Shown in pieces: positions 60,696-61,330 of a DNA stretch of 64,000 bases. The translations under genes were made by a program, and so were the position numbers. The notes under the pieces were generated by a model. It was not told the DNA's origin. It saw nothing but the letters and a program-made list of their open reading frames with translations, and searched no databases. Numbering within the stretch: the stretch's first letter is position 1; each line of letters begins with the position of its first letter. Source of the DNA: Bacillus sp. F19 (GTDB taxonomy: Bacteria; Bacillota; Bacilli; Bacillales; Bacillaceae); the NCBI GenBank assembly GCA_023823795.1, contig CP085710.1, positions 2,754,001-2,818,000 on the forward strand, given 5' to 3'.

Positions 60696-60906
60696 GGAAA
60701 ACCTCCATTTTTTCTGAATTTTAAATTAATTTTATCAACCCTTGTCCGTATTAGCAAAGAATATTTAAGCACAGCAGAAAAATAAAAAAATGAAATTCAA
60801 TGAGAAACTAAGAAAAACAGAGAATTTGAGAGATTTACAAGTTGTAAACGCTTTATTTGACTTTATACAGATTATTCTGAATCTTTAATTATTGTAAAGA
60901 TTTTGT

Positions 60907-60912
60907 TAAGAT
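60907..60912 (+). promoter_or_regulatory. Possible -10 box of the tandem-module RNA
   Basis: TAAGAT with a weak -35 TTTAAT (60884-60889) at 17 bases. Further upstream TTGTAAACGCTTTA (60842-60855) resembles a CcpA cre site with two mismatches. Confidence 0.35.
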
Positions 60913-60938
60913 GAATTTACTCACTCATAGGAAGGCGT

Positions 60939-61158
60939 GATTCCAATGACGACGGTAAGCGAAGCATATCAGAATCACATCCAGTATAAAATCAGCCCGT
61001 GAAAACTGATTTTGAGGTGTGTGGATATGCGGGGAAACATGAATCTGACTAAGGGGATGATTCCAATGACGACGGTGAGCGAAGCATGCTAAGATCATGA
61101 TGCAGATGAAAATAGCCCGTGAAAACTATTTTCGCAGCATGTGGGTATGCGGGTAATC
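60939..61158 (+). ncRNA. Tandem pair of structured RNA modules, unknown class
   Basis: Module 1 (60939-61045) and module 2 (61059-61158) are offset by exactly 120 bases. Both start GATTCCAATGACGACGGT and contain AGCGAAGCAT, a hairpin with conserved loop CCCGTGAAAA, and a 3' part GTGG-TATGCGGG. Helices covary between copies: AAAATCAG/CTGATTTT against GAAAATAG/CTATTTTC, and CACATC/GGTGTG against CATGATGC/GCAGCATG. No long open frame is present. It matches no riboswitch class I can name. Confidence 0.7.
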
Positions 61159-61264
61159 AAAGCAAAAGAATAAACTGATCGAATCCGTGCAAGACATTAA
61201 TTGAAAGCAATCAATTGATTCACAGCAACGAATGGTTATTAGTAAGAAAGGAAAGAACAAAAAA

Positions 61265-61288
61265 GTGAATATGTTTGATTCAAGATAA
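61265..61288 (+). CDS. Possible leader-type mini-ORF, 7 codons
   Basis: GTG-AAT-ATG-TTT-GAT-TCA-AGA-TAA directly follows GAAAGGAAAG, just after the tandem RNA modules and right before the terminator. It is too short to judge; it might be a regulated peptide or chance. Confidence 0.25.
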   Translation: MNMFDSR

Positions 61289-61289
61289 G

Positions 61290-61330
61290 ACGCTGTTTAT
61301 GTTCTGTATACATAGACAGCGTTTTGTTTT
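61290..61330 (+). terminator. Terminator of the tandem-module transcript
   Basis: ACGCTGT / ACAGCGT with inner TATGT / ATACATA pairing, followed by TTTTGTTTTG. It defines an RNA of about 400 bases on the plus strand. Confidence 0.7.

Follow-up and report, generated by a model that had tools for sequence, protein, structure and literature searches.

What kind of RNA is made from two similar modules of ~114 nt that lie exactly 120 bases apart and are followed by a 7-codon frame and a terminator of their own? This question is raised by a locus in the window (the whole 64,000-nucleotide stretch of Bacillus sp. F19 DNA that was analyzed; we take the host genus to be Metabacillus). A first-pass annotation had described the repeated modules with their kept blocks, and they were found where it placed them, the block CCAATGACGACGGT starting at 60943 and again at 61063. 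In the host's own genome this 5' block has two copies only (at up to three mismatches), both in these modules. The terminator after the modules and the 7-codon frame before it are also present, and the nearest listed genes flanking the RNA in the window are both on the minus strand. The features of the locus are as follows.

60874..60890, + strand: promoter-upstream element ATTCTGAATCTTTAATT, with 4 mismatches to the family consensus ATTCTGAATATTTACAA
60884..60889, + strand: -35-like hexamer TTTAAT, for which many relatives have TTTACA; its spacing to the -10-like hexamer is 17 nt
60907..60912, + strand: -10-like hexamer TAAGAT
near 60919, + strand: inferred start of transcription
60929..60935, + strand: Shine-Dalgarno (SD)-like AGGAAGG of module 1, called from its sequence
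60932..61045, + strand: structured module 1, with helices P1 (GCATATC/GATATGC), P2 (CACATC/GGTGTG) and P3 (AAAATCAG/CTGATTTT) and loop CCCGTGAAAA
60946..61002, + strand: micro-ORF of module 1, ATG and 18 codons in total, then TGA
5' end of module 2, + strand: SD-like AGGGG
61052..61165, + strand: structured module 2, with P1 (GCATGCT/GGTATGC), P2 (CATG/CATG) and P3 (GAAAATAG/CTATTTTC)
61066..61092, + strand: micro-ORF of module 2, 8 codons (ATG ACG ACG GTG AGC GAA GCA TGC TAA)
61248..61252, + strand: SD-like AAGGA, 12 nt upstream of the start codon of the terminal micro-ORF
61265..61288, + strand: terminal 7-codon ORF (GTG AAT ATG TTT GAT TCA AGA TAA)
about 61289..61330, + strand: intrinsic terminator, which directly follows the stop of the 7-codon ORF

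The RNA had been said to fit no familiar riboswitch class, and comparison with Rfam 15 agrees. In 441 bases of the window, four sub-threshold matches were obtained at E ≤ 5, and none is credible. Three of them lie on the terminator; the fourth, TtnuCD22 on module 2, scored 15.5 bits against a threshold of 85. When the loci of 18 relatives were compared with Rfam 15 at the gathering score, four matches were returned, none of them on the RNA, and stretches of L189 and L118 gave no match at E ≤ 1. Known RNAs do lie elsewhere in the relatives' loci: a cspA thermoregulator (L061:1927-2275, minus), RNase P (L059:4736-5124, minus), a T-box (L118:887-1139, plus) and a SAM riboswitch (L084:5939-6049, plus). 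No paper describing this RNA was found by title or abstract in the open-licence literature.

The structural case rests on comparison and not on energy, because single modules fold no better than shuffled sequences (z of -0.37 and -0.24 for stability); folding of a 418-nt stretch gave z -2.68 against shuffles. The compensating helix changes that the first pass had read from the two window modules were borne out among relatives. Across 16 modules of the host genus, 98.6% of cells pair and 52 cells changed on both sides, while slid controls reach at most 50.9% (these totals include a pseudoknot that was later rejected). Across 30 modules from Metabacillus, Fictibacillus, Rossellomorea and Paenibacillus, the paired fraction is 99.5% for P1, 90.0% for P2 and 97.1% for P3, and double-sided changes occur in 16 of the 19 pairs of these helices; overall, 129 cells changed on both sides vs 36.3 in shuffles, with slid controls at 48.5% or less (totals that again include the failed pseudoknot). 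By this comparison P1, P2 and P3 covary over diverse modules, and the alignment of relatives keeps all three, as homologues of a structured RNA had been expected to do. A further helix, P0, has two invariant C-G pairs and is weaker outside these (83.3%). The pseudoknot, between ACGG on the 5' side and CCGU in the loop, paired in 96.9% of cells within the genus but in 57.1% over the 30 diverse modules, with one pair at 8/30, and was withdrawn. The conserved unpaired letters of the module are AGCGAAG and GGG, and most of the 30 modules show good conservation of the apical loop YCNGUGAAAA. A covarying scaffold with conserved letters is what the core of a riboswitch would have; a ligand-binding part is putative.

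The window RNA is, as its matches indicate, one member of a large RNA family of Bacillales and Paenibacillaceae. A BLAST-type search that covered 61 genomes detected it in each of the 8 from the host genus and in none of the rest. A covariance model (R1) built from 16 modules and searched in 397 genomes of the order matched 42 at E ≤ 0.003: 5 of the own genus, 27 with at least two full-length modules, which fall in two other families (Rossellomorea, Fictibacillus), 9 that have just one module, of a short form, and a single false positive in coding sequence. The short form, a feature of halo-alkaliphiles that was found among others in Halalkalibacter nanhaiisediminis and Bacillus solitudinis, retains the 5' strand (SD-like block, TCC, NTG, AGCGAA), P1 and GGG, and is without P2 and P3. 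In a named collection, 50 of 62 stretches from a pattern scan carried credible model matches, including four Paenibacillus species as well as short forms in Halalkalibacter and Alkalihalobacillus, and the other 12 carried none. A broader model (R3) gave matches in 122 of the 245 genomes searched in the family that we take as Paenibacillaceae, many with four modules per locus; these are model matches, from which 16 stretches were retrieved and 27 further short loci searched. By model detection, the number of modules per RNA ranges from 1 to 4.

Beyond these groups, matches thin out. Five of 299 genomes of the phylum matched, four of them already known and one weak; this weak match (G1282:C155:299-393, E 2.6e-4, in a genome that is 63% complete) is the sole one outside Bacilli. 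A class-level search with a short model gave raw matches in 20 of 398 genomes, and one exact pattern gave none in viral_contigs. Within the own family, a threshold of E ≤ 0.1 gave matches in 23 of 81 genomes; 8 of the 23 are of the own genus, and none of the 73 family genomes outside it gave an accepted match (12 of 15 candidate loci were read). The fifteen weak matches of 53 nt outside the own genus (12 loci read, 4 searched, 3 alignments) resemble one coding stretch, presumably argininosuccinate lyase, and were set aside as chance. The match in L067/G108 was also rejected, as by eye it sits within a protein-coding stretch. A third weak match, in G001, has E 0.07.

The RNA looks like a gene of its own, with a promoter-like element, its own terminator and no conserved neighbor. 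The element ATTCTGAATATTTACAA lies upstream with up to three mismatches in 49 of 99 loci vs 0.24 expected, and with up to four in 60 of 99 vs 2.3 expected; the shuffle controls for this element and for the terminal ORF below preserve base composition only, and since the loci are related by descent, counts overstate independence and excesses over shuffles are descriptive. Most loci that have the element show, by eye, the 17-nt spacing between -35 and -10. It is present in Fictibacillus, Rossellomorea, Halalkalibacter and some Paenibacillaceae, is weaker in most Metabacillus, and was not found in the four-module group of Paenibacillaceae (6-8 mismatches). Neighboring genes can be common within a genus and are not conserved between genera: over 84 loci they form 40 homology clusters downstream and 38 upstream, and the next downstream ORF of at least 80 codons is on the opposite strand in 46. 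The first-pass suggestion of a riboswitch did not survive in the form of a cis-riboswitch for a downstream gene, which is not supported by these loci, as no conserved class of downstream gene was found over the 84. Nor was readthrough into a constant downstream gene, as an attenuator would have, found over the same 84 loci.

Several other sites overlap or adjoin the promoter. A near-cre site that had been noted does lie upstream of the RNA, at 60842-60857; it is not conserved in more distant members of the genus (L006-L008) and was dropped as a lead. A TTAACA-N5-TTTACA direct repeat on the minus strand (60893-60909), which we take to resemble a PhoP box, overlaps the -10-like hexamer and may be a chance product of promoter letters. 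Overlapping the -35-like hexamer, ATTATTCTGAATCTT (60871-60885) resembles what we take to be the CodY operator, with an assumed consensus of AATTTTCWGAAAATT and 11 of 15 positions counted by hand; its most widely kept part is TGAATATTTACA. The CodY-like palindrome TTCTGAA is broken in several short-form loci and is a lead only.

What the first-pass annotation had not described is that each module spans an SD-like block, a start codon and an early stop. Of 238 rows, 203 modules were counted after removal of L067, L095, L140 and five further rows and after duplicates were dropped; the promoter, neighbor, terminal-ORF and folding counts draw on loci cleaned in this way as well. An NTG lies one base after CC in 202 of the 203 (ATG 182, TTG 19, GTG 1, CTG 0); the search fixed CC and TG and left the first base of NTG free, and loss of the start codon may be undercounted because the models that find modules reward conserved letters. 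The one module without NTG is L200 3100-3220. An SD-like string precedes the NTG by 8-15 nt in 191 of the 202, and the listed strings are absent from the other 11. Among 176 distinct starts, frame 0 meets a stop within 9 codons in 136 and within 20 codons in 174; the figures for the other frames are 59/108 and 86/160. The in-frame stop falls at codon 3 in 76 (TAA 13, TAG 54, TGA 9) and at codon 9 in 56 (TAA 23, TAG 20, TGA 13), so that the micro-ORFs are mostly 2 or 8 codons long, with a range of 2-25. Their second codon varies (AAG, AAA, ACG, CAA, ACA, GAC, TAC, GAA and others). Conservation of RNA letters could account for part of the early stops; GTNAGC by itself gives stops in both other frames.

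The 7-codon frame at the end of the RNA, which the first pass knew from the window only, recurs in relatives at constant length. An ORF of 6-9 codons stands at the base of the terminator in 66 of 91 loci, in 57 of them with exactly 7 codons, vs 9.06 of 85 in shuffles; a short ORF adjoining a terminator is also what an attenuator would have. Starts are TTG in 40, ATG in 14 and GTG in 12 of the 66, and stops are TAA in 38, TAG in 21 and TGA in 7. The peptides are diverse, with 57 distinct sequences in the 66 loci, such as VNMFDSR in the window, LNKVYLS in Rossellomorea, VNIVSIS and VNSKYIK in Fictibacillus, MNEESIV in Halalkalibacter and LNSKLNE in Paenibacillaceae. The first residue would be formyl-Met in each case, and the second is Asn in 54 of 66. 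As compared across these loci, it is the length and position of the terminal ORF that are conserved, not its peptide. The 25 loci that fail the test comprise 8 that were recovered when the stop was allowed to fall as far as 14 nt into the stem, 4 without a terminator call and 13 remaining. The window copy (L001) is among the 8 recovered, having been missed at first because its stem was over-extended. In L192, from the same contig region as L100, the terminal ORF is readable by eye. Spacing from SD to start is 10-14 nt in most of the Bacillales loci listed; the 12 nt of the window exceeds the usual spacing.

How might these parts work together? In the full module the order is SD-like block, TTCC (predicted to be paired in P0), start codon, micro-ORF, and then, ~18 nt past the first base of the start codon, the P1-P3 hairpin. 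Predicted folds of 29 modules from 15 chosen loci place TTCC (-5 to -2) in a helix and begin P1 at +18 or +19, and the predicted openness of the SD and start in this set is about the RNA average. A P1 that begins there is near the leading edge of an initiating ribosome. With P0 open, the micro-ORF would be free for initiation by a ribosome whose leading edge meets the hairpin; this ribosome would then terminate almost at once, or stall. With P0 closed, the stretch between SD and start would be locked and the site off. Because P0 is predicted to hold the TTCC between SD and start, ribosome binding and P0 closure should be mutually exclusive. The terminal unit repeats the plan of the module (SD, start, 21 nt, stop, hairpin), and its 7-codon ORF would serve as the final site of the series or as its read-out. 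Serial sites of this kind on one transcript would make it a capture platform or a sensor, either of initiating ribosomes or of initiation or termination factors; a transcript with several such sites and no protein-length ORF appears best explained by the ribosome as its partner. We put the chance that the RNA acts through ribosomes on serial micro-ORFs at a little under even. The fuller proposal, a new kind of non-coding RNA in which 1-4 switchable initiation modules and a fixed-length 7-codon ORF sense or capture initiating ribosomes and neither encode a protein nor pair with mRNAs, is more speculative, perhaps one to be held as a minority view.

There are other possibilities for these observations. 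CsrB and RsmZ are stand-alone sequestering RNAs made of small repeated GGA hairpins, and the present RNA, which is apparently stand-alone and has repeated units whose number varies (1-4 model matches), could likewise titrate one regulatory protein, with the modules as its sites and the GGA/AGG of the SD-like blocks as letters of the protein site. The conserved unpaired AGCGAAG and GGG, and the AGG/GGA seen by eye near module ends, agree with this, but a protein site would not demand that ATG/TTG/GTG or TAA/TAG/TGA interchange, or that a terminal ORF of constant length recur. Moreover, some modules have no 3' GGA (window module 2 has GGGTAATC), and the repeat unit is not a small GGA hairpin but a ~114-nt covarying domain over a start codon. 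Sequestration is, on this evidence, unlikely. The glycine riboswitch consists of tandem aptamers, and two similar aptamer-like domains in tandem are also seen here; the covariation, the conserved unpaired letters, the SD and start around P0, and the short ORF and terminator downstream would all suit a ligand-sensing tandem aptamer whose output is confined to the 7-codon terminal peptide or to early termination of the transcript that carries it. Unlike the glycine riboswitch, the RNA has no match in Rfam, no constant downstream gene and 1-4 modules. With the downstream gene not conserved, a conserved peptide product not evident among 57 distinct peptides in 66 loci, and P2 and P3 wholly missing from the short form, we consider an aptamer of this kind distinctly improbable. 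A gene that stands alone with its own promoter and terminator is the usual organization of an sRNA, and the promoter element, the terminator and the well-kept apical loop would fit a trans-acting RNA that pairs with target mRNAs through its SD-like and loop stretches, the micro-ORFs being incidental or protecting against decay. Pairing with targets leaves the constant 7-codon length and the interchange of starts and stops unexplained, however, and we rate it as doubtful as the aptamer.

Engagement of ribosomes by serial micro-ORFs was also compared with described RNAs that combine some of these traits. CsfG is a conserved sRNA of endospore-forming Bacillaceae from the ylbG-ylbH region, with conserved stretches in loops, described as CU-rich, and between helices (available text of PMC3574147, PMC9147052). 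The present RNA shares conservation in Bacillaceae and kept stretches in loops and between helices, whereas the ylbG-ylbH location and CU-rich loops belong, in that text, to CsfG. We rejected identity with CsfG, as its location and loops so described differ and cmscan of the window gave no match to the ylbH/CsfG family, which we take to be RF00516 (provided that the Rfam copy includes this model). SR1/SR1P, as far as its available description goes, is a dual-function sRNA with an ORF, as is RNAIII with hld, and ours too is an RNA that also contains ORFs; those RNAs encode a defined small protein, whereas here there are 2-, 8- and 7-codon frames with varying residues. The uORF motifs uORFC-6-1 and uORFC-8-2 lie upstream of a usual gene (hflX, cysS) in the available part of PMC8632094, and like ribosome-mediated attenuators they combine a short ORF with RNA structure. 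In the RNA described here, by contrast, no constant gene lies downstream and there are several micro-ORFs per RNA. As a structured stand-alone RNA it belongs, judging from its organization, to a known broad class, and the first-pass view that the product is the RNA itself, or else that a small peptide is under its control, appears right. We know of no counterpart to the serial start-stop micro-ORF plan.

Regardless of mechanism, a structured RNA without a match in Rfam 15 is found in 122 of 245 sampled Paenibacillaceae genomes (by model match) and in several genera of Bacillales. If the micro-ORFs are translated, this would be a natural RNA that conserves the act and geometry of initiation and termination and not the peptide, and it would offer a handle on RNA-based sensing of the state of the ribosome in bacteria. 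Otherwise it is still a structured RNA of wide occurrence, ready for experiments on its function.

Individual loci depart from the common plan. A divergent extra module with marginal model scores lies between the third and fourth in L189:3623-3667 and L190:3247-3346 (minus); it retains the SD and GATTCCAATGCAATAG, and its stem differs (GGCAGGCAGG...). Some Fictibacillus have a third, shorter and weakly scoring module ahead of two full ones (L069:3030-3112, L085:4647-4739, L128:1849-1950). In four Paenibacillus loci (L100, L119, L092, L114), the RNA by eye starts with a hairpin CATCACC...GGTGA upstream of module 1, the inner letters of which vary between species; CATTCCTAAATTTAG follows, and then the SD. 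In the short form of Alkalihalobacillus/Halalkalibacter, an extra ORF of ~11 codons with an SD-like block lies upstream of the module (L102:566-601 and its counterparts in L110 and L118), and its peptides, MKQFFLAGALP, MKRFFSAGASP and MKQFFLSGASP, look alike by eye.
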